In this document: positions 7,873 through 62,479 of the stretch, piece by piece
Layout of the letters: each line of letters starts with the position of its first letter
Numbering within the stretch: the stretch's first letter is position 1
Origin: Deferrisoma camini S3R1
GTDB taxonomy: Bacteria > Desulfobacterota > Deferrisomatia > Deferrisomatales > Deferrisomataceae
Reading direction: 5' to 3'
DNA: 64,000 nt
Assembly: GCF_000526155.1 (NCBI RefSeq)
Contig: NZ_JAFN01000001.1
Location: 748,501-812,500, forward strand
Program-made: the position numbers and the translations under genes
Notes under the pieces: model-generated
Databases searched by the model: none
What the model was told of the DNA's origin: nothing
What the model saw: only the letters and a program-made list of their open reading frames with translations

Positions 7873-9117
7873 ATGAAGATCATACATCTCCTCGACCACA
7901 GCCTTCCCCTCCACAGCGGCTACACCTTCCGGAGCCGGAACATCCTGTTGTGCCAATTGCGGCAGGGTCTCCGTCCGGTGGCCGTGACGTCCCCGAAACA
8001 CGAGGCGGCTTGGAGCGGGGAGTGGCGGCCAAAGGAAGAGTTCGACGGAATCGCCTACCACCGATCCGGACCGGTCTCCGGGCGGGTGCCGGTCTGGGCT
8101 GAGATCCGGCTGATGGCCCGGAGCCAGACCAAGGTGCGAGAAGTCGCCCGGGAGGAGTCTCCCGCCGTGATCCACGCCCACAGCCCGGTGCTGAACGCGT
8201 TTCCAGCGCTTCGGATCGGAAGGGAACGGCGCGTTCCGGTTGTGTACGAGATCCGGGCCTTCTGGGAGGACGCGGCCGTGGACCATGGCACCCACCGGGA
8301 GTGGGGGCTACGGTACCGGCTCACCCGGGCCCTCGAGACCCGGGCCTGCCGCCGGGCCGACGCAGTGGTGACCATCTGCGAGGGGTTGCGATCCGACCTG
8401 GTGTCGCGGGGCATCCCCTCGGAAAAGATTACCGTGGTGCCCAACGCTGTGGACCCCGAGGAGCTCCGGCCCGTGCCCCGCGACCCCGCCCTGAGGGCCC
8501 GCTGGGGGGTGGGGGAGGCCGACTTCGTGATCGGGTTCATCGGCTCGTTCTACCACTACGAAGGCCTCGACCTCCTCCTCCACGCCCTGGCCTACCTGAA
8601 GGAAGGAAGGGGTGACAACGATTCACGATTCACGATTCACGATTCACGCGCGCCCCGCGCGCTGCTGATCGGCGGCGGTCAGGAGGACGAGCGGCTCCGT
8701 GCCTTGGCCCAAGACCTGGGCGTGGCCGACCGGGTGGTGTTCGCCGGCCGCATCCCCCACGCCGAGGTGCCGGCCGCCTACGCGGCCTGCGACGCCCTGG
8801 TGCTGCCCCGAAAGTCGATCCGGCTCACCGAACTGGTCACTCCCCTCAAACCCCTGGAGGCCATGGCCCTGAACACCCCCGTCATCGCGAGCGACGTGGG
8901 CGGCCACAAGGAGCTCGTGCGGGACGGGGAGACCGGGCTCCTGTTCCCGGCGGGGGACCCGGCGGCCCTGGCCGACCGGATCCTGGCCCTGGCCCGGAGC
9001 CCGGATCTGGCGAACCGCCTCCGGGAGAACGGCCGCCGCTGGGTCACGGCCGAGCGCACCTGGAAACGAAACGGCGAGATTTATCGGGAGGTGTATGGGA
9101 AGACGTTGGGACGTTAG
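7873..9117 (+). CDS. Glycosyltransferase family 4, exosortase-A locus type (TIGR04063-like)
   Basis: 414 residues, GT-B retaining glycosyltransferase. Features: MKIIHLLDHSLPLHSGYTFR at the start (Gly-rich acceptor loop, characteristic of the Stp3/TIGR04063 group), VVPNAVDPEELRPV near residue 190, RKSIRLTELVTPLKPLEAMA (sugar-nucleotide-binding region) near residue 315. A 31-bp GATTCAC array at 8618-8648 lies inside the gene and is translated in frame as residues 249-259 (NDSRFTIHDSR) in a loop before the strand RALLIGGG. The C-terminus (KTLGR) and stop are supplied by an 8-bp repeat. It probably adds a sugar to the lipid-linked repeat unit on the inner membrane's cytoplasmic face. Confidence 0.83.
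   Translation: MKIIHLLDHSLPLHSGYTFRSRNILLCQLRQGLRPVAVTSPKHEAAWSGEWRPKEEFDGIAYHRSGPVSGRVPVWAEIRLMARSQTKVREVAREESPAVIHAHSPVLNAFPALRIGRERRVPVVYEIRAFWEDAAVDHGTHREWGLRYRLTRALETRACRRADAVVTICEGLRSDLVSRGIPSEKITVVPNAVDPEELRPVPRDPALRARWGVGEADFVIGFIGSFYHYEGLDLLLHALAYLKEGRGDNDSRFTIHDSRAPRALLIGGGQEDERLRALAQDLGVADRVVFAGRIPHAEVPAAYAACDALVLPRKSIRLTELVTPLKPLEAMALNTPVIASDVGGHKELVRDGETGLLFPAGDPAALADRILALARSPDLANRLRENGRRWVTAERTWKRNGEIYREVYGKTLGR
8618..8648. repeat. 7-bp GATTCAC array inside a glycosyltransferase gene
   Basis: A little over four perfect 7-bp units, in the orientation without stops, in frame with the host gene. It encodes part of the heptapeptide cycle DSRFTIH. Confidence 0.95.
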
Positions 9118-36679: not shown

Positions 36680-36740
36680 GTGCCGAGTGCCCGTCGGCCA
36701 CAGGTGGATACGGATTTTCACGGTGAACTGCGGTGACGGG

Positions 36741-36945
36741 AGGACGCGCGGACGTTGGGACGTGCGGACGGGATGCCGTGTGGACGGTGGGACGTGCGGA
36801 CGTGCGGACGGAACGTCCCAACGTCCCAACGACTCACGACCAGCGATTCACCATTCACCATTCACGATTCACGGCCCCATCCGTCCTAGCGTCCTAGCGT
36901 CCCAACGTTCCCCGCCCCGTGGCGTCGTTGCGCCGTGGCGTGAGC
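36741..36945. repeat. Composite 8-bp/7-bp repeat block upstream of vapBC copy 1
   Basis: In order: (GGACGTGC)n-type 8-bp units, the opposed CGTCCCAA units, ACGACTCA/ACGACCAG, then CATTCACC/GATTCAC units, GGCCCCATCCGTC, CGTCCTAG units, and finally GTGGCGTCGTTGCGCCGTGG. Very similar blocks precede or follow each accessory cassette at 44978-45325, 46085-46410, 47514-47770 and 48560-48748. GGGACG and CGTCCC arms face each other and could pair. No gene is seen within 36680-37053. Confidence 0.9.
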
Positions 36946-40091: not shown

Positions 40092-40304
40092 GGGGATCTC
40101 CTCTGAGGCTCCTGGGAAAGGGGAGCGAGGAGGATACCCCGGTGGATGGAAGTCCGAGACCCTCGGGCAGACAGATCAGGTGGCTCGATTACCCCGATCC
40201 TGGGGTGGCTCGATTAGGCGATCATCGGGTGGCCCCATTAGGCGATCATGAGGTGGCTCGATTACGGCGATCCTCGAATGGCTCCATATTGGCGATCAGC
40301 AACA

Positions 40305-44977: not shown

Positions 44978-45325
44978 CCGTTCGTGGTTGATCGTCCGTC
45001 GCAGGTCGTGGGTCGGCCACCACGAACGACCTCCGACGAACGACCAACGGCAGTTGGGATGCCGTGTGGACGCTGGGAGGTGCGGACGTGCGAACGGTAT
45101 TCCGTGTGGACGCTAGGACGTGCGGACGTGCGAACGGTATTCCGTGTGGACGTTTGGACGTGCGAACGTGCGAACGGAACGTCCCAACGTCCCAACGACT
45201 CACGACCAGCGATTCACCATTCACCATTCACGATTCACGGCCCCATCCGTCCCAACGTCCTAGCGTCCCAACGTCCTAGCGTCCTAACGTCCCCCGCCCC
45301 GTGGCGTCGTTGCGCCGTGGCGGGA
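44978..45325. repeat. Composite 7/8-bp repeat block between Rpn copy 1 and the PIN gene
   Basis: The 387-bp gap 44889-45275 and the 3' end of the PIN gene are built almost wholly of repeats: GGTCGTT/CGACCTC units, two near-exact runs of GGACGTGCGAACGGTATTCC-type sequence, CGTCCCAA units, ACTCACGACCAGCGATTCAC, GGCCCCATCCGTC, CGTCCTAG units and GTGGCGTCGTTGCGCCGTGG. The first about 90 bases (44889-44985) are shared with the upstream region of Rpn copy 2. Confidence 0.88.
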
Positions 45326-46084: not shown

Positions 46085-46410
46085 GCGACGCCTCGCGTCG
46101 GCTGGGAGGCTGGAACGCTAGGAGGCTAGGAAGCGGAAAGGCAGGGCTGGCTGTTCGTCGTCGGTGGTTGAAGGTGTACAATGTACGCGACCGGCGATTT
46201 ACGACCTGCGGCAGTTCAGATGACGTGCGGACGGTATTACGTGTGGACGCTAGGACGTGCGAACGAGCGGACGGTATTCCGTGTGGACGTTTGGACGTGC
46301 GGACGTGCGAACGGAACGTCCCAACGTCCCAACGACTCACGACCAGCGATTCACCATTCACCATTCACGATTCACGGCCCCATCCGTCCTAGCGTCCCAG
46401 CGTGCCAGCG
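46085..46410. repeat. Composite repeat block between RHH/PIN and Rpn copy 2
   Basis: The 462-bp gap 45959-46420 holds no gene. It has GGAGGCTA/GGAACGCTA-type 8-bp units near 46100-46135, ACGACCTGCGGCAGTT, then GGACGTGCGAACG runs, CGTCCCAA units, GATTCAC/CATTCACC units, GGCCCCATCCGTC, and CCCAGCGTGCCAGCGG, which also ends the block before Rpn copy 1. Confidence 0.88.
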
Positions 46411-54785: not shown

Positions 54786-57583
54786 GGCGGTGGGCGCTCC
54801 TGTGGGGGGCCGCGCTCCTCGTCTCGGGCTGTGCCGGTGCCCCTCCGGCTCCGCGGCAGCGGCCGGCTCCCCCCGGCCGGCAGGAGGCCGCACCCCGTGC
54901 CCGCACCCTGTCGGAGGCCACCCGCCAGGCCCGGGCCCGGCTCGAGGCCCTGCGCAGGGGCGGGGCCGCGCCCCCCGAGCCGGGCGACGACCTGGTCGCC
55001 CGGTACGAGGACCTGCTGCGCCGGCCCGGCACGCCCGAGGACCGCAAGCCGGAGATCCTGCTGCGGCTGGCGGAGCTCGCGTTCGAGCGGGAGACCGAGG
55101 CCCTGCGCCGGGCCTACGAGGGCGAGGCCGACATCCCCCCCCGCGACCGGTACGTGGACACCGTGGGGTACTACGAGCGCCTGGTGCGGAGGTACCCCGA
55201 CAGCCCCCAAGCCCTGACCGCCTTCTACAACCTGGGGTACGTGTACGGCGAACGGGGCGAGGTCCGTCGGGCCGCCGAGGCCTACCGCGAGGTCCTGCGC
55301 CGGGACCCGGACACGCCGTACCGGGACGAGATCCACATGCGGCTGGGCGAGGTGGCCTTCGACGACGGCCGCCTCGAGGAGGCCGCGGCCCACTACCGGG
55401 CCGTGGTCGAGGAGGGCAAGGAGGCCTACCGGGCCGCGGCCCTGTACAAGCTGGGCTGGTGCTTCTTCAACCTGGAGCGGTACCCCGAGGCGGTGGAGGC
55501 GTTCCACCGGGTGCTGGCCGACGCAGATCCCAGCCGGGAGGACCTCAGGCGGGAGACCCTGGAGGTGCTCAGCAAGACCTTGCTCGAGTGGGGGGGGCTT
55601 CCCGCCCTCGAGCGGTACCTGGCCGACCACCCGGAGGTGGCCGACCGGGGCCCGGACCTGTACCGCAAGCTCGGAGACCTGTTCCTGGACGCCAGCCGCT
55701 ACGACGAGGCCGTGGCCACCTACGCGGCCGGGGTGGAGGCGTACCCGACCTCGGCCCTGTGCCTGGAGATGGAGCGGGGCATCCTGGCCGCTTACCGGAT
55801 CCGGCGGGACGTGGAGGCCGCGATGACGCGCCGGGAGAGCTGGGTGCGGCGCTACGGGCCGGGGTCGGCCTGGGACCGGGCCCACGCCGGCACGGACCTG
55901 GCCGCCGAGCGCGACGCCATGGTGGAGGAGGGGCTTCGGCTGGCCGCCCTGTACCGCCACGGCCGGGCCCAGCGGGGGCAGGGCGAGCTGGGCCGGGCCC
56001 TGGCCCTGTACCGGGCGTACCTGGACTGGTTCGGGGACGGCTCCGAGGCCGGCTACGAGATGGCCTACCGGTACGCCGACGCCCTCCGGGAGGCCCAGCG
56101 GTTCCGGGAGGCGGCCGACGCCTACCGGCGGGTGGCGGAGCGGGAGGACCGGCGGAACCGCCGGGAGGACGCGGCCCTGCGGCGGATCGAGGTGCTGGGC
56201 CGGCTGGTCGAGGAGGATCCCTCCGTGCTGGACGAGTGGATCGAGAGCCACGCGGACTTCGTGCGGTGGAACCCGACCTCGCCCCGGGTCCCGGAGGTGC
56301 TCCTGGCCCAGGGGGACCGGCTGCTGGCCGCGGGCCGCCTGGAGGCGGCCGCGGCGGTGTACGAGCGGCTCCGGGCCGGCCACCCCGCCTCCGCCCAGGC
56401 CGCCCGCTCCTGGGGCCGGACCGCCACGTGCCTGTTCCGGCTCGAGCGCTACGCCGAGGCCGAGGCGGCCGCCCGCAAGGCCCTGGAGGCGGCGGCCGAT
56501 CAGGACGAGCGCAGCCGGGCCCGGGAGTTGGTGGTGTTCAGCGTGTTCAAGCAGGGGGAGGCGGCCGAGGCCGCGGGCCGGATCGACGAGGCGAACCGGC
56601 ACTTCCTGCGGCTGGTGGAGGAGTTCCCGGCGGCCCAGGCCTCGCGCATCGCGCTGTACCGGGCCGCCGAGAACCTCCGGAACGCCGGCCGGCAGGGGGA
56701 GGCGGCCGAGCTGTACGAGCGCCTGGCCCGGACCTACCCGGGCTCGGACCACGCCCGCGCCGCCCTGCTGCTGGCCAGCCGCATCCACGAAGGCCAGGGG
56801 GACTGGGTCCGGGTGGCCCAGGACCGCGAGGCCCTGTTCCGGGGCTCGTCGGACCCGGCCGAGGCCGCGGACGCCCTGTTCGGGGCGGCCCGGGCCTGGG
56901 CCAAGGCCGAGAGGTGGGACCGGGCGGCCGACCGGTACGCCGAGTTCGCACGCCGGTTCCCGGATGACCCCCGGGTGGCCGAGGCGTGGGTGGGCCGGGC
57001 CGAGGCCCTGGAGGCCGGCGGCGGCGACCCCGAAGCGGCCTATCGGGCCGCCTGGGCGACCCCGGCCGAGGGCCCCGGCGCCTACCACCGGGCCCGGGCC
57101 GCCCTGGCCCTGGCCCGCCGTCGGCTGGAACGGTTTCGGGCCGTGGAGCTGCGGGGCGATCTGGAGGCCCGGCTGGCCGAGAAGGAGGCCCTGCTGGAGG
57201 AGGCCCTGGCCTGGCTCACCCGGGCGGCAGGGGTGCCGTTCGCCGACGTGGTGACCGAGGCCCTGTACCGGGCCGGGGAGGCGTTCGAGCACATGAAGCA
57301 GGCCTTGCTGGAGTCGGAGCGGCCCGAGGGGCTGAGCCCGGAGGAGCTGGAGGAGTACGACTTCCTCCTGGAGGAGCGGGCGTTTCCCCTGGAGGAGCGC
57401 GCGGTGGGGTTTTACCAGAAGGGCGTGGCCGTCGCCCGACGGGCCGGGACGGTCACGCCGTGGGTGGAGCGGATGTTCACCCGGCTGGAGGCGCTGGTGC
57501 CCTGGGCGTACCGGAGGCCCGAGCAGGCCGTAACCGCGGTGGACCCGCCGGCCCCGCCCCCGGCGCCGGAGGCGGAGCGATGA
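54782..57583 (+). CDS. Large TPR lipoprotein of the Agl/Glt-like operon
   Basis: 933 residues. Lipoprotein signal RRWALLWGAALLVSGCAGAP with the lipidated Cys in VSGC (about residue 17). The rest is more than ten TPR-type repeats (FYNLGYVYGERGEVRRAAEA, ALYKLGWCFFNLERYPEAVE, LYRAAENLRNAGRQGEAAEL and others) covering residues about 120-750, and a C-terminal helical part before a Pro-rich end. Large periplasmic scaffold, probably anchored in the outer membrane. Similar TPR proteins accompany the TolQR-type motor in delta-proteobacterial gliding/Tol-like operons. GTG 54782 overlaps the upstream stop; the end overlaps the next start (ATGA). Confidence 0.82.
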   Translation: MRRWALLWGAALLVSGCAGAPPAPRQRPAPPGRQEAAPRARTLSEATRQARARLEALRRGGAAPPEPGDDLVARYEDLLRRPGTPEDRKPEILLRLAELAFERETEALRRAYEGEADIPPRDRYVDTVGYYERLVRRYPDSPQALTAFYNLGYVYGERGEVRRAAEAYREVLRRDPDTPYRDEIHMRLGEVAFDDGRLEEAAAHYRAVVEEGKEAYRAAALYKLGWCFFNLERYPEAVEAFHRVLADADPSREDLRRETLEVLSKTLLEWGGLPALERYLADHPEVADRGPDLYRKLGDLFLDASRYDEAVATYAAGVEAYPTSALCLEMERGILAAYRIRRDVEAAMTRRESWVRRYGPGSAWDRAHAGTDLAAERDAMVEEGLRLAALYRHGRAQRGQGELGRALALYRAYLDWFGDGSEAGYEMAYRYADALREAQRFREAADAYRRVAEREDRRNRREDAALRRIEVLGRLVEEDPSVLDEWIESHADFVRWNPTSPRVPEVLLAQGDRLLAAGRLEAAAAVYERLRAGHPASAQAARSWGRTATCLFRLERYAEAEAAARKALEAAADQDERSRARELVVFSVFKQGEAAEAAGRIDEANRHFLRLVEEFPAAQASRIALYRAAENLRNAGRQGEAAELYERLARTYPGSDHARAALLLASRIHEGQGDWVRVAQDREALFRGSSDPAEAADALFGAARAWAKAERWDRAADRYAEFARRFPDDPRVAEAWVGRAEALEAGGGDPEAAYRAAWATPAEGPGAYHRARAALALARRRLERFRAVELRGDLEARLAEKEALLEEALAWLTRAAGVPFADVVTEALYRAGEAFEHMKQALLESERPEGLSPEELEEYDFLLEERAFPLEERAVGFYQKGVAVARRAGTVTPWVERMFTRLEALVPWAYRRPEQAVTAVDPPAPPPAPEAER

Positions 57584-58665
57584 GGCCCTCCCGGCTCGTG
57601 CCCTGGATCGTGGCGGGCCTGCTGGCCGCCTGCGCCGGCCCGCGGCCCGCGCCGACCCCCGCGCCGACGGAACAAGCCCCGGCCCTGGGGGAGGCCGCGG
57701 CCCGGCTGGGCCCCGCCCAGTGGGCGGCCCGGGCCCGGGCCGCGCTCGAGCGGGGCGAGTACGGGAGGGCCATCGAGGCCGCCCAAAGGGCCCGGACCCT
57801 GGACCCGGACCTGGCCGAGGCCTGGCGGCTGGAGGCCCGGGCCCGGGAGGCCACCGGCGACCTGGCCGGAGCCCGGGAGGCCTGGGCCGGGGTGGTGGAC
57901 CGGCTCCCCGGGGATGCCGGGGCCGTGGAGGCCTACGCCCGGCTCTCGGCCCGGCTGGGTCGCGAGGCGGAGAGCTGGCAGGGCCTGGCCGACCGGGGGG
58001 CCGTGGCCGCGGGGTGGGCCGGGTGGCTGGCCCTGCGGGCGGGGCGGGTGGACGAGGCGTCCCGGCTGCTGGAGACGGCGGTGGGGGCCGAGGAAGGGGA
58101 TCGGTGGTGGGTGCCCTTGGGCCGGGCCCGGCTCCTGCGGGGGGACCTGGCCGGGGCGGCCGAGGCCGCGCAGGCGGCCGTGGAACGGTGGCCCCGGGAT
58201 CCGGAGGCGTGGGGCCTGCGGGGGGACGTGGCCAGGGAGCAGGGGCTCGGCGCCGAGGCCCGCTCGGCGTACGAGGAGGCGCTTCGCCTGGATCCGGGGC
58301 GGTACGCGGCCCGGGTGAACCTGGCCGTGGTGCTCCTGGGCCAGGGGGAGGCGGCCGAGGCCGAGGCCGTGCTCCGGGAGGCGATCGAGAAGGAGCCCGA
58401 ACGGCCCGAGGCCTGGAACGACCTGGGCCTGGCCCTTCGGTCCCAGGGCAGGTATGCGGAGGCGGCCGAGGCGTACCGAAAGGCCCTGGAGGTCCGGCCC
58501 GGCTACCTGCCGGCCCTCAAGAACCTGGGCATCTGCTACGAGAAGTACCTGGGGCGGCTGGCCGACGCGATCCAGGTGTACGACCGGTACCTGGAGCTGT
58601 CCCCGGACGACCGGGACGTGGCCCGGTGGCGCAAGGCGGCAAAACGAAGGGCAGGGGAGAGATGA
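57580..58665 (+). CDS. TPR lipoprotein, GltE/AglT-like
   Basis: 361 residues. Lipobox in GLLAACAG (Cys at about residue 19), a Pro/Ala-rich linker, then TPR units through the rest (LERGEYGRAIEAAQRARTLD, AYEEALRLDPGRYAARVNLA, AWNDLGLALRSQGRYAEAAE, AIQVYDRYLELSPDD). Outer-membrane-anchored periplasmic protein. In myxobacteria, AglT/GltE is a TPR lipoprotein of this size encoded with the gliding apparatus. Coupled by ATGA overlaps on both sides. Confidence 0.82.
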   Translation: MRPSRLVPWIVAGLLAACAGPRPAPTPAPTEQAPALGEAAARLGPAQWAARARAALERGEYGRAIEAAQRARTLDPDLAEAWRLEARAREATGDLAGAREAWAGVVDRLPGDAGAVEAYARLSARLGREAESWQGLADRGAVAAGWAGWLALRAGRVDEASRLLETAVGAEEGDRWWVPLGRARLLRGDLAGAAEAAQAAVERWPRDPEAWGLRGDVAREQGLGAEARSAYEEALRLDPGRYAARVNLAVVLLGQGEAAEAEAVLREAIEKEPERPEAWNDLGLALRSQGRYAEAAEAYRKALEVRPGYLPALKNLGICYEKYLGRLADAIQVYDRYLELSPDDRDVARWRKAAKRRAGER

Positions 58666-59237
58666 AGGGTTCGGGGACGCCCGGTGCGAATCGGGGGGGA
58701 ACGTGTGGATGTGCTGGGGCCGCGCCGCGGCGGGCCGGTCGGCGTGGGTCGCAGGTCGCTGGTAGCAGGTGGTGGGAAAGGCCGTCCATTGCAGGCCGGA
58801 GCGCGCTGGTCGTTGGGTCTTCCGAACGAACGACCAACGACAAACGACCTGCGGCAGTTGCTACCACGAACTACCTGCGATCTACGACCTACGGCCGTTC
58901 AACCATTCACGATTCACGATTCACGATTCACGTAAGTTGGCCCATTCCCGATTCCCGATTTACGATTCACGACCTCCGGCCATTCCTCGCGCTTCTCGTC
59001 GCCCTGGCGCTCTTGGGTGTTGGAGGGGCCGTGCCGGCGGCGGAACGGCCGAAGCCGCCGGCCGAGATCCGGATGAAAGAGGTCGAGATCCGGGGCGAGG
59101 TGGAGCGGCCCGGGGTGTTCTACGTGATCCCCCGACGGCCCACCCCCCTGGACCTGGGCCCCCGCACCCGGGACTTCCGGCCCGAGATCCTGGAGCCCTT
59201 GCTCCCGCAGGGGGAGGCTGGGAGGCGAGGCGGCTAG
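58662..59237 (+). CDS. Small secreted protein of the Glt-like operon, N-terminus invaded by repeats
   Basis: 191 residues in one open frame from ATG 58662, which overlaps the upstream stop. The recognisable protein is the last third: a signal-like segment FLALLVALALLGVGGAVPAA (about residues 107-126) and then a compact conserved-looking domain (PPAEIRMKEVEIRGEVERPG, VFYVIPRRPTPLDLGP). Between the start and the signal segment, bases about 58741-58980 are repeat arrays, translated as TTNDKRP-, DSRFTIH- and DLRP-like heptads. The last residues (GEAGRRGG) and the stop come from a GGAGGCGA/GGCGGCTA repeat. If the native signal peptide now starts about 105 residues in, export may be lost unless a downstream start is used. 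Confidence 0.65.
   Translation: MKGSGTPGANRGGTCGCAGAAPRRAGRRGSQVAGSRWWERPSIAGRSALVVGSSERTTNDKRPAAVATTNYLRSTTYGRSTIHDSRFTIHVSWPIPDSRFTIHDLRPFLALLVALALLGVGGAVPAAERPKPPAEIRMKEVEIRGEVERPGVFYVIPRRPTPLDLGPRTRDFRPEILEPLLPQGEAGRRGG
58741..58980. repeat. 7-bp composite array inside the small secreted-protein gene
   Basis: In order: GGTCGCAGGTCGCTGG units, GGTCGTTGGG and its opposed CGACCAACGACAAACGACC, CTACCTGCGATCTACGACC, three GATTCAC units (58906-58932), a GATTCCC/GATTTAC/GATTCAC run, ending ACGACCTCCGGCC. All in the stop-free orientation relative to the host gene. Confidence 0.88.
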
Positions 59238-59318
59238 GCGGCTGGGCGGCTCGTCCCAACGATTCACGATTTACGATTCACGATTCACGGCAGTTTACGA
59301 TTCACGGCAGTTCACACG
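59212..59318. repeat. Composite array between the small secreted protein and tolQ
   Basis: GGAGGCTGGGAGGCGAGGCG 8-bp-like units at the gene end, then CGTCCCAACGATTCAC, GATTTAC/GATTCAC units, and two GGCAGTTTAC/GGCAGTTCAC ends. A break of 24 bases follows to the TolQ start. Confidence 0.88.
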
Positions 59319-59341
59319 ACCGATCATCCGGAGGTACGCGC

Positions 59342-59977
59342 ATGTGGGAAGGTTTGGCCAGGGCGTTTCAGGAGGGAGGGGTGTTCATGTACGCCATCAC
59401 CGGCGCCCTGGGGTTCGGGGTGGCGGTGATCCTGGAGCGCCTGTACTGGCTTCTGGTGCGGTTCAATGTGGACGGCCGGAAGTTCTACGGCGAGCTGAGA
59501 CGCCTGATCGAGGCCGGAGATCTGGAGGCGGCCCGCGACCTGTGCGGGGACGCGCCCCTGCCCCGGATCCTGCGGGCCGGCATCGAGGCCGCCCTCGGCG
59601 CCGGGGGAACGGAGCGGGCGGTGCAGAACGCCGTGGACGAGGAGGCCCTGGCCGTGATCCCCAAGATCGAGAAGCGGATCCACTACCTGTCGATGATCGC
59701 GAACGTGGCAACCCTTCTGGGGCTCCTGGGCACGATCCTGGGCCTGATGCAGGCGTTCCAGGCCGTGGCCGGGGCCGACCCCTCCCAGAAGGCGGCCATG
59801 CTGGCCCGGGGCATCTCCATGGCGATGAACACCACGGCCTACGGCCTGCTGGTGGCGATCCCGTGCATGGTGTTCTACGCGTTCCTCCAGTCGAAGGCGG
59901 CGAAGATCGTGGACGAGATCGACGAGTACTCGGTGAAGCTGATCAACCTGCTGACCACCTCCCGGAGGGAGGGGTAG
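59342..59977 (+). CDS. TolQ/ExbB/MotA-type proton channel protein (AglR-like)
   Basis: 211 residues. TM1 about residues 14-36 (MYAITGALGFGVAVILERLYWL), a cytoplasmic loop, then TM2 and TM3 about 118-180 (SMIANVATLLGLLGTILGLM, GISMAMNTTAYGLLVAIPCM). The LLGLLGTILGLMQAF and NTTAYGLLVAIP motifs are those of the TolQ/ExbB family. It forms the inner-membrane stator with the two TolR proteins that follow. ATG 59342 with GGAGG upstream. Confidence 0.93.
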   Translation: MWEGLARAFQEGGVFMYAITGALGFGVAVILERLYWLLVRFNVDGRKFYGELRRLIEAGDLEAARDLCGDAPLPRILRAGIEAALGAGGTERAVQNAVDEEALAVIPKIEKRIHYLSMIANVATLLGLLGTILGLMQAFQAVAGADPSQKAAMLARGISMAMNTTAYGLLVAIPCMVFYAFLQSKAAKIVDEIDEYSVKLINLLTTSRREG

Positions 59978-59980
59978 CGG

Positions 59981-60469
59981 ATGCCCGGCCTGCGGCCCAG
60001 CAAGCGGCGCCACCGGGTGCACGCGGACGTGGAGCTCAAGCTGATCCCGGTGATGAGCCTGCTCGTGGTGCTCGTGCCCATGCTGCTCCAGACCGCGGTG
60101 TTCCAGAAGGTGGCCGCCATCTCCATGAGCCTGCCCAGCGCCGACGAGGTCCGGTACCTGGAGGAGCCGACCCCCGAGGAGCTGGCCCGGTCGGTCACGG
60201 TGGCCATGACCGACGAGGGGTTCGTGGTGGCGTCGGGGGACGAGACGCTGGAGCGGGTGCCCCTGACGGCCGAGGGGGGGTACGACTTCGAGGCCCTGGC
60301 CGCGGCCCTGGCCCGGGTGAAGAGGTCGTTCCCCGGCCAGGAGGCCCTGGTGCTGCTGGTGGAGGACGCGGTGCGCTACGAGGACGTCGTGCACGCCATG
60401 GACCGGGCCCGGCCCCACTTCCCCGACGTGTCCCTGGCCGACCGGGTCCAGGCCCCGGTCGAGGAGTGA
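59981..60469 (+). CDS. TolR/ExbD-type protein, first copy
   Basis: 162 residues. One TM helix near the N-terminus (about residues 22-41: LKLIPVMSLLVVLVPMLLQT), then a periplasmic ExbD/TolR domain (FVVASGDETLERVPL, LVLLVEDAVRYEDVVHAMDR). The usual TolR Asp in the TM helix is replaced: the segment reads VELKLIPVMSLLVVL with no Asp, so the proton-carrying residue is probably on the second copy. ATG 59981, three bases after the tolQ stop. Confidence 0.88.
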   Translation: MPGLRPSKRRHRVHADVELKLIPVMSLLVVLVPMLLQTAVFQKVAAISMSLPSADEVRYLEEPTPEELARSVTVAMTDEGFVVASGDETLERVPLTAEGGYDFEALAAALARVKRSFPGQEALVLLVEDAVRYEDVVHAMDRARPHFPDVSLADRVQAPVEE

Positions 60470-60472
60470 GCC

Positions 60473-60973
60473 GTGCCGTTCTCGCCCACCAAGCGCAAGA
60501 AGCACTTCCGGCGCAGGCCCCGGGAGATGACCCTGCAGATCACGTCGATGATCGACGTGTTCACGATCCTGTTGGTGTTCCTCCTGAAGAGCTACTCCAC
60601 CGAGGGCCACCTGATCAACATCGCCGAAGCGATCCGGCTGCCCACCTCCACGGCCACCCTCGAGGTGGCCCGGGCCGTGAGCGTGGGGTTCAACGACCGG
60701 GCCCTGTACCTGGACGGCGAGCTGCTGGTGGAGGACGTGACGCCCTATCTGGCCTCGGACGACATGGCGATCCCCCCGCTGCTGCGGGCCCTGGAGGAGC
60801 GGGCCGCGAGGGTCAAGGAGGTCGCGGCGAAGAACCCGTCGGTGGTGTTCACCGGTGAGATCGTGCTCCAGGGCGACCGGGAGATCCCGTTCCGGCTGCT
60901 CAAGAAGGTCATCTACACCGCGGGCCAGGCCGGGTACGTGAACCAGTCGCTGGCCGTGTTTCAGGAGGAGTAG
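60473..60973 (+). CDS. TolR/ExbD-type protein, second copy (AglS-like)
   Basis: 166 residues. The TM helix TLQITSMIDVFTILLVFLLK (about residues 20-39) keeps the conserved Asp (SMIDVFTILLVFLL), the proton-accepting residue of TolR/ExbD. Periplasmic domain follows (VSVGFNDRALYLDGELLVED, PSVVFTGEIVLQGDREIPFR). With one TolQ and two TolR proteins, the order and number equal the AglRQS stator of myxobacterial gliding. GTG 60473. Confidence 0.92.
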   Translation: MPFSPTKRKKHFRRRPREMTLQITSMIDVFTILLVFLLKSYSTEGHLINIAEAIRLPTSTATLEVARAVSVGFNDRALYLDGELLVEDVTPYLASDDMAIPPLLRALEERAARVKEVAAKNPSVVFTGEIVLQGDREIPFRLLKKVIYTAGQAGYVNQSLAVFQEE

Positions 60974-62479
60974 ATGGGGCTGGCCAAGCCGAAGCCGGGT
61001 GCCCCCGCCGCCCGTCGGGTGCTGTGGGTGCGGTTCTGGCGGGGCGACCGCCGGGTGGGGCAGGTGGTCGCCCCCACCGGCCGGGTCCGGTGGGGGCCCA
61101 GCGTGGGGATCGAGTTCGCATACCCCGTGCCGGGGGTGGACCGTTGGGAAGACCTGTTCCTGCCGGGCCCGCGGCTGGTGGTACGGCCCGGCATGACCGG
61201 CGAGATCCGTACGGGCCGGTCGGTGCTGGCCGTGGAGGACCTGGAGGCCCTGGGGCTCCTGCAGGGGGGGCGCCGCCGCCGGTGGTTCGGCCTGACCCCG
61301 GCCATGGAGGGCACGGTGGAGGCCCGGGGCCTCCGCATCGAGTTCTCGTTCGGGCCTCCGCCCCTGCTGGAGCCGGTGGTCCGGTTGGGCGGGGTGCCCC
61401 GCCGGTTCCGCCGCGGGCTGCTGAGCCGGGAGGAGTGGCCGTTCGCCCTGTTCTCGTGGGCCCTGTACGGCGTGCTGGCCCTCCTGTGCCTGCGCCTGGG
61501 CACGGTGCCCGTGCCCCCCGCCCCCAAGCCCGAGGCGGTGAGCCGGCGGTTCGCGAAGCTGATCTACGAGGCCCCCCAGGAACGCACCCGGATCCAGCAG
61601 GAGCTCCTGGCCCAACGCCGGGCCGAGGAGGCCCGGAGGGCGCCCGCGACCGAGGCGAAGAAGGAGCCCGCCGAACCCGCGCCCCAGCCCAAGCCGGAGC
61701 CGGAACGCGAGCCGAAACCGCAACCCGAGCCCGAGCCCCGGGCGCAAGCCCCGGCCGAGGAGGCGCCCCAGCAGACTCCGCCGGCCCCCGCGGCCGGGCC
61801 CCCGGCCGGGGAGAAGCCGGCCGGCCCGGCGGAGCGGCCCGCCGGACCCAGCCGCGAGCAGATCCGCAAGAGGGTGGCCAACAAGGGCCTCCTGGGGCTT
61901 CTGAGTGGCCGGGGCCGGGCCTCGGTGTCCCGCCGCCGGGCCTCGGTGCTCCAGGGCGGCGGAGCGGCCGCGGACCTGGACCGGGTGCTGGAGAAGGTCC
62001 AGGGGCTCGAGGCCACCCCGCCCGCGGGGGGCGGCGGGGGCGGGGGCTCGGGCGGGCCCGCGGTGGCCACCGGGGTGGACGAGGCCGCGAGCCGGGTGGC
62101 GGCGGCCCCGGAACCGGTGGAGCTGGAGGGCCCGGCCGAGGAGGCCGTGGAGGCGCCCCAGGAGGAGGGGTGGGACGAGGTCACGATGCGCGAGGTGCTG
62201 GCCGAGCTCCACCGGGCCGTGGGCGCCTACCTGGGTGGGCTGCGGTACCTGTACAACCGGGCCCTGCGCCGCAACCCCGACCTGGAGGGCAAGTTCACGG
62301 TGCGCATGACCGTGGGGCCGGACGGCAGGATCCAGGCCCTGGAGGTGGTGGAATCCACCCTGGGGGATCCCGAGCTGGAGAAGGCCCTGCTCGCCCGGAT
62401 CCGCCGTTGGACCCTTCCGGCCGTGGCGGACCGTCCGGTCACGGTCACCTATCCGTTCGTGTTCTTCCCGAGCATGTGA
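60974..62479 (+). CDS. TonB-like protein with AgmX/PglI-type C-terminal domain (GltG/GltJ-like)
   Basis: 501 residues. N-terminal beta-rich cytoplasmic domain (residues about 1-150), one TM helix (about 158-178, FALFSWALYGVLALLCLRLG), a long Pro/Glu/Lys-rich periplasmic linker (PKPEPEREPKPQPEPEPRAQ near 235-255), a Gly-rich stretch, and a C-terminal TonB-type domain (YLYNRALRRNPDLEGKFTVR, IQALEVVESTLGDPELEKAL). The last part is the AgmX/PglI C-terminal domain of gliding/Glt systems. It should connect the TolQR stator in the inner membrane to outer-membrane lipoproteins. ATG directly follows the previous stop. Confidence 0.88.
   Translation: MGLAKPKPGAPAARRVLWVRFWRGDRRVGQVVAPTGRVRWGPSVGIEFAYPVPGVDRWEDLFLPGPRLVVRPGMTGEIRTGRSVLAVEDLEALGLLQGGRRRRWFGLTPAMEGTVEARGLRIEFSFGPPPLLEPVVRLGGVPRRFRRGLLSREEWPFALFSWALYGVLALLCLRLGTVPVPPAPKPEAVSRRFAKLIYEAPQERTRIQQELLAQRRAEEARRAPATEAKKEPAEPAPQPKPEPEREPKPQPEPEPRAQAPAEEAPQQTPPAPAAGPPAGEKPAGPAERPAGPSREQIRKRVANKGLLGLLSGRGRASVSRRRASVLQGGGAAADLDRVLEKVQGLEATPPAGGGGGGGSGGPAVATGVDEAASRVAAAPEPVELEGPAEEAVEAPQEEGWDEVTMREVLAELHRAVGAYLGGLRYLYNRALRRNPDLEGKFTVRMTVGPDGRIQALEVVESTLGDPELEKALLARIRRWTLPAVADRPVTVTYPFVFFPSM

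Follow-up and report, generated by a model that had tools for sequence, protein, structure and literature searches.

Long SSRs with 7-nt units were reported by Mrazek et al. 2007 (summarized in PMC4679880), and heptanucleotide examples include GGGAATC of Xanthomonas and Nostoc (PMC4692102) and TAACTGA of Beggiatoaceae (PMC4679880). Rickettsia palindromic elements (Ogata et al. 2000; reviewed in PMC10969869) are units of about 150 bp that fall into defined families and encode a conserved peptide. In the Borg aaTRs, the repeat units located in open reading frames are divisible by three and nearly all perfect (PMC9879509). The extended signal peptides of autotransporters carry a charged N-terminal extension of about 25 residues before the signal part (PMC2805444). 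Our literature search found the ATTCACG array string in no paper, and nothing on repeats in Deferrisoma.

Here we analyze a gene of Deferrisoma camini S3R1 in which a heptamer array lies between the start codon and the signal peptide. The genome is a single contig of 4,236,551 bp, and "the window" denotes the whole stretch of 64,000 nucleotides that was analyzed. The features in and next to the gene are as follows.

57580-58665, plus strand: upstream TPR gene (Pfam TPR families; frame and overlap by direct reading)
58654-58659, plus strand: GGGGAG, Shine-Dalgarno-like, 2 nt 5' of the ATG (direct reading)
58662-59237, plus strand: gene under study, 191 aa, comprising an array-coded N-terminal tail, a signal peptide and a conserved small periplasmic-type domain
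58665-58749, plus strand: G-rich 5' arm of the inserted segment, not 7-periodic (GC skew +0.42 and +0.32 in the first two fifths; periodicity test)
58750-58900, plus strand: degenerate heptamers AGGTCGC, ACGACCA and ACGACCT (lag-7 match 0.47; 0 of 2000 shuffles)
58905-58971, plus strand: ATTCACG, ATTCCCG and ATTTACG heptamers, encoding TIHDSRF-type heptapeptides (TRF period 7; lag-7 match 0.70 over 58900-58972)
58965-58967, plus strand: ATT, the rare-start candidate nearest the signal, common to the sister genome, with no SD 5' of it
58983-59027, plus strand: hydrophobic core of the signal peptide, residues 108-122 (hydropathy; AlphaFold helix 102-121, pLDDT about 75-78)
59070-59138, plus strand: conserved core RMKEVEIRGEVERPGVFYVIPRR (12-member alignment; dN 0.032 and dS 0.298 between the window genome, G000, and its relative G002)
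59214-59253, plus strand: run of octamers (GGCTGGGA-type) giving the C-terminal tail EAGRRGG and the stop codon; the tails differ among three Deferrisoma species

The ATG at 58662-58664 overlaps the TGA of the TPR gene at 58663-58665 in an ATGA junction, in agreement with the coupled start described in the sequence-only reading, and the frame is open from there for 191 codons, up to the TAG at 59235-59237. The hydrophobic 15-mer FLALLVALALLGVGG, recognized by hydropathy as the signal-like core, begins only at residue 108, which confirms that the signal-like segment lies far behind the start. A codon-usage gene caller placed the start at 59031; this position is behind the signal core and was rejected, since the signal would be lost. 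Searches of the protein with Pfam and NCBIfam profiles assigned no family.

A 7-bp-periodic array spans about 58750-58973, between the start codon and the signal segment. Over 58741-58980 the lag-7 self-match is 0.53, as compared to 0.17-0.34 for the other lags between 3 and 15 (multiples of 7 excluded), and none of 2000 shuffles of the same segment reached 0.53 (mean 0.25, maximum 0.34). The claim of an array of 7-bp units is thus supported by the periodicity, but it does not extend to the stretch of roughly 85 bp directly behind the ATG (58665-58749), where 1864 of 2000 shuffles reach the lag-7 value, and clean ATTCACG-type runs occur only at 58905-58932 and 58944-58971. The ATTCACG orientation is stop-free in all frames, the opposite orientation carries TGA, and every frame reads the same heptapeptide, TIHDSRF, because 7 mod 3 = 1. 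The frame does stay open through the array, as had been stated, but this is in itself weak evidence of coding since the orientation has no stop in any frame; the weight rests on the missing start codon after the array and on the comparison with relatives. The GC skew within the in-gene segment shifts from +0.42 to -0.35, as in the spacers, and with this G-to-C shift the segment looks like a spacer element minus the stop-bearing left units. An Rfam search of 57000-60500 at E 0.1 gave no match to a structured RNA.

We searched 12 genomes of the order, 11 of which contain the gene. The nearest relatives are two MAGs of the same genus, G001 (the sister) and G002, and G003 belongs to the same family. 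In nine array-free orthologues the signal core starts at residue 3-12, right behind the TPR-overlapping start codon; the only genomes that differ are G000, with the core at residue 108, and G001, with the core at residue 58. The site is empty in G002 (GTGAGGTGGGTGG...), in G003 (GTGATCCGCCCGTTCCTGGCG) and in seven further orthologues, which bears out the proposal that an array was gained between the start codon and the signal peptide. The N-terminus of G003 is M-IRPFLAAVLAL (MIRPFLAAVLAL), and the window reads ...DLRPFLALLVALALL. The retained RPFLA start shows this to be the ancestral signal, with the array located between the start and the RPFLA motif. Relatives with the same long N-terminus had been named as the finding that would speak against a gain. 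Such a terminus was observed in one sister only (G001), where the tail is 50 residues shorter, which refines the claim rather than refuting it.

The arrays of G000 and G001 share their 3' end to the base, that of G000 being 150 nt longer in the same frame. The distances from the ATG to the signal are 324 nt in G000 and 174 nt in G001, both multiples of 3; with two carrier species there is little power to detect selection on the frame, the chance of a shared frame being about 1/3. The ATGA junction and a purine-rich SD are kept in both carriers, and the G001 counterpart of GGGGAG is AGGGAGAG 5' of its ATG. The dS of the flanking TPR gene between G000 and G001 is only 0.079, yet the arrays differ by 150 nt, so that the array changes quickly when measured against point substitutions. 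Most probably, a composite heptamer element of the intergenic type entered the ATGA junction just 3' of the coupled start codon before the window species and G001 diverged from their common ancestor, and its length has changed rapidly since.

In the window genome, no in-frame ATG, GTG or TTG is located between 58662 and the signal core, the next one being TTG 59013 inside the core. G001 has a single TTG in frame, 42 codons 5' of its core and before most of its array. Two alternatives had been offered, an internal start or a long extension. The extension is favoured by the missing start codons and by the same frame in the sister, whereas internal initiation would have to use a rare codon, for instance ATT 58965, that no SD precedes. 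Based on these comparisons of sequence, translation probably runs through the array from 58662, so that a signal peptide that is otherwise conserved follows an unusually long N-terminal tail in the cytosol. From ATG 58662, ribosomes would read through the array, which is possible because its signal-side arm has the orientation without stops and its overall length is divisible by three, and they would produce a disordered, arginine-rich tail of 107 residues (57 in G001) before the old signal. The earlier description as a heptad-repeat extension applies to roughly the last 30-35 residues of the tail and implies no coiled coil: residues 1 to about 90-100 are predicted by AlphaFold to be coil, with pLDDT values of about 41-58 in a model that is low overall (mean pLDDT 54).

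A spacer function has to be weighed against this reading. If the array were only a spacer, translation would begin behind it at a non-standard codon. The likeliest candidate is ATT 58965, from which the protein would read (M)HDLRPFLALLVALALLGVGG..., and re-initiation or SD-independent initiation in the A+T-richer array would give a signal peptide of ordinary short length. G000 and G001 do not differ at ATT 58965 or in its context, the distance of this codon is ideal for a normal signal peptide and the resulting signal would be of normal length. In this genome, genes are often preceded by stop-free arrays with an open frame running through them, most of the sibling arrays are spacers (many end near a start codon), and some genes start right behind an array without an SD-like motif. 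We nevertheless judge a start behind the array to be unlikely, as no SD-like motif was found in 58901-59021, ATT start codons are very rare in bacteria, and both carriers retain the ATGA start with its SD as well as the open frame.

With translation from 58662, the signal would act as an internal, N-extended Sec signal with the tail remaining in the cytosol, and the protein would either be cleaved by signal peptidase (at about AVPA) or be anchored as a type II membrane protein; export and cleavage are both predictions from the sequence. A normal signal preceded by a charged N-terminal extension recalls the extended signal peptides of autotransporters. Unlike these, the extension described here is about 100 residues long, array-coded and absent in relatives; it is unconserved and precedes a small protein that is not of the autotransporter type. 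The position of the signal core at residue 108 amounts to an n-region extension only if 58662 is the start, and at roughly 107 residues it would be extreme as compared to the approximately 25 known for autotransporters.

Such a length, far beyond usual signal n-regions, could also be taken as a sign of gene decay, in which the insertion of the array abolished export and the open frame is a remnant. The C-terminus, too, has been overwritten by octamer sequence in all three Deferrisoma species. However, the mature part is under purifying selection, with a dN/dS of about 0.11 between G000 and G002, and the proteins of G000 and G001 are identical across 59 core residues. The signal segment is retained with one conservative change, both carriers have kept the frame, and we find decay quite unlikely. 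The octamer-derived C-terminal tail is species-specific in the three Deferrisoma species, and the outgroups mostly end in a ..FE.. motif.

The tail may alternatively have been recruited, as a cytosolic domain or as a hairpin in the operon mRNA that tunes export or expression. The predicted RNA fold of the 329-nt region is slightly better than that of shuffled sequences (z -2.1; equalled by 2 of 100 shuffles), and the arginine-rich composition recalls extended signal regions. The fold excess is, however, modest and composition-dependent, the tail is predicted to be disordered, its length and sequence differ between the two carriers, and the third species of the genus has no tail. Recruitment thus seems improbable, and the tail is most likely carried along as tolerated baggage, not selected for a new function.

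The genes downstream are arranged as follows.

59259-59312, plus strand: second heptamer array, in the spacer 5' of tolQ (TRF)
59342-59977, plus strand: TolQ/ExbB-type gene (PF01618)
59981-60973, plus strand: two TolR/ExbD-type genes (59981-60469 and 60473-60973; PF02472)
60974-62479, plus strand: protein with a TonB-C / AgmX-PglI C-terminal domain (NF033768, 78.3 bits, cutoff 40)

The term "Glt-like operon" used earlier is a fair description of this arrangement, although no cutoff for a Glt protein model was reached: the Glt equivalog models gave 44 of 225 bits for GltE and 60.9 of 650 bits for GltG. Among the Glt/Agl-related models, the only one to pass its cutoff was that for the AgmX/PglI C-terminal domain. 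By the equivalog models, the operon is thus not placed with the Glt/Agl gliding operon of Myxococcus.

In-frame arrays are also present in two enzymes.

L053 15094-17100 (minus strand), L121 1501-3504 (plus strand) and L122 1501-3510 (minus strand): asparagine synthase (AsnB) with an array-coded insert, in three Deferrisoma species
7873-9117, plus strand: glycosyltransferase with an in-frame heptamer array in a loop (8618-8648, NDSRFTIHDSR)

The asparagine synthase insert occupies about residues 41-82, 3' of the catalytic MCG N-terminus, at one site in the three species. The inserts, WEAGKLGSPASYQRPNDSRFTIHDLRS, LEAGKLGSSNHSRLTIHDSRAHG and VGTLGRWDAGTWEKQ...SQRPNVLTSQHPND, differ in sequence family and length, and the nearest PDB relative has no insert but continues from ...RGPDASGQWL directly to HAALGHRRLSIIDL. 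The activity of asparagine synthase needs both the N-terminal cysteine and the following domain. Since the catalytic cysteine precedes the insert and the following domain is also required, these arrays must be translated, which provides a precedent for array translation in this genome. The glycosyltransferase loop was compared at 8618-8648 of the window and at L123, L124, L125 and L126. It reads GDGSRVT...RPNV or RPHV in G001 and G002 and TQHSALSTQHSEPSTQHSAP, built on another heptamer (AGCACTC), in G005 of another family; G004 has no insert.

The Rickettsia palindromic elements resemble the arrays in that repeats of an intergenic type also occur in frame inside unrelated genes. The insertions here are likewise in frame in conserved genes and absent in relatives (gene 58662-59237, AsnB and the glycosyltransferase). 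Unlike the elements as described there, the arrays consist of 7-8 bp units, no mobile unit was recognized, and inserts at the same site differ by species, those in AsnB forming no fixed family with a conserved peptide in the three species. By this comparison, the Rickettsia elements are the nearest precedent for intergenic-type repeats inside genes.

The pattern ACGATTNACGATTNACG has 122 matches in the genome of the window, with a further 17 in G001 and 37 in G002; read backwards, the same pattern has none in any of the three. A census covered about 459 kb, a non-random sample mostly chosen around array matches and biased to array-rich regions, with genes called by a purpose-written codon-usage caller. 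In this sample we counted 53 period-7 arrays in spacers and 2 in genes, 41 and 1 with period 8, and 0-2 for each of the periods 5, 10, 11 and 13. Only 2 of the 55 sampled heptamer arrays of the window genome are thus within called genes, in addition to the array of gene 58662-59237. In the sampled genome, lags 7 and 8 are prominent, and other lags that are not multiples of three are near zero. In co-directional spacers, CGTGAAT is found just 3' of the upstream stop (first half in 17 of 18; median 12 nt), and 21 of 30 in the ATTCACG orientation lie in the second half; the two orientations differ in position by the Mann-Whitney test (p 4.7e-7). A shift from G-rich to C-rich along the spacer was observed in 102 of 134 spacers.

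Composite co-directional spacers in the window and in L043-L062 begin, after the upstream gene, with stop-bearing G-rich units and carry the reverse complements of these units ahead of the following gene. They look like large inverted repeats assembled from several families of 7- and 8-mers. Further arrays with periods of 8, 16, 24, 32, 40 or 48, some related to the octamer families, are located at 36735-36810, 40175-40298, 45062-45293 and 46223-46314. In the phylum, ACGATTN heptamer repeats occur in 30 of 247 genomes with a very patchy distribution: a few unrelated genera have them in abundance, and most of their neighbours lack them.

As for the heptanucleotide long SSRs, each genome has many short arrays that lie almost exclusively in spacers, their occurrence among taxa is patchy, their length changes fast between near relatives, and the tandem 7-nt units exceed chance (lag-7 match 0.53 versus a shuffle maximum of 0.34). 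The arrays differ from these SSRs in that several 7- and 8-mer families are combined in composite spacers, G-rich on the left and C-rich on the right, and in that some lie in frame within conserved genes despite a unit length not divisible by three. The Borg aaTRs (PMC9879509) likewise include tandem repeats in both spacers and genes, with those in genes making disordered segments. In contrast to the aaTRs, the in-gene units are 7 or 8 nt long and degenerate, and the frame is kept by the total length only.

A possible but doubtful reading is that Deferrisoma has an active process by which 7- and 8-mer arrays are written and rewritten at fixed sites that tolerate them (gene junctions, protein loops and termini), adding new disordered segments in any phase, and that in the gene studied here it shifted the signal by 100 residues with export kept. 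Neither 7 nor 8 is divisible by three, and the orientation that faces the gene lacks stops, so that such arrays could join a coding frame in whatever phase.

Since the arrays by nature keep frames open, the annotation of start sites beside them is unsafe. The empty site, the sister with a short array and the species with a long array stand side by side, and the two enzymes are independent cases. They constitute a natural experiment on the greatest distance from the N-terminus at which a Sec signal peptide still functions, and on how non-coding repeat arrays become protein sequence.
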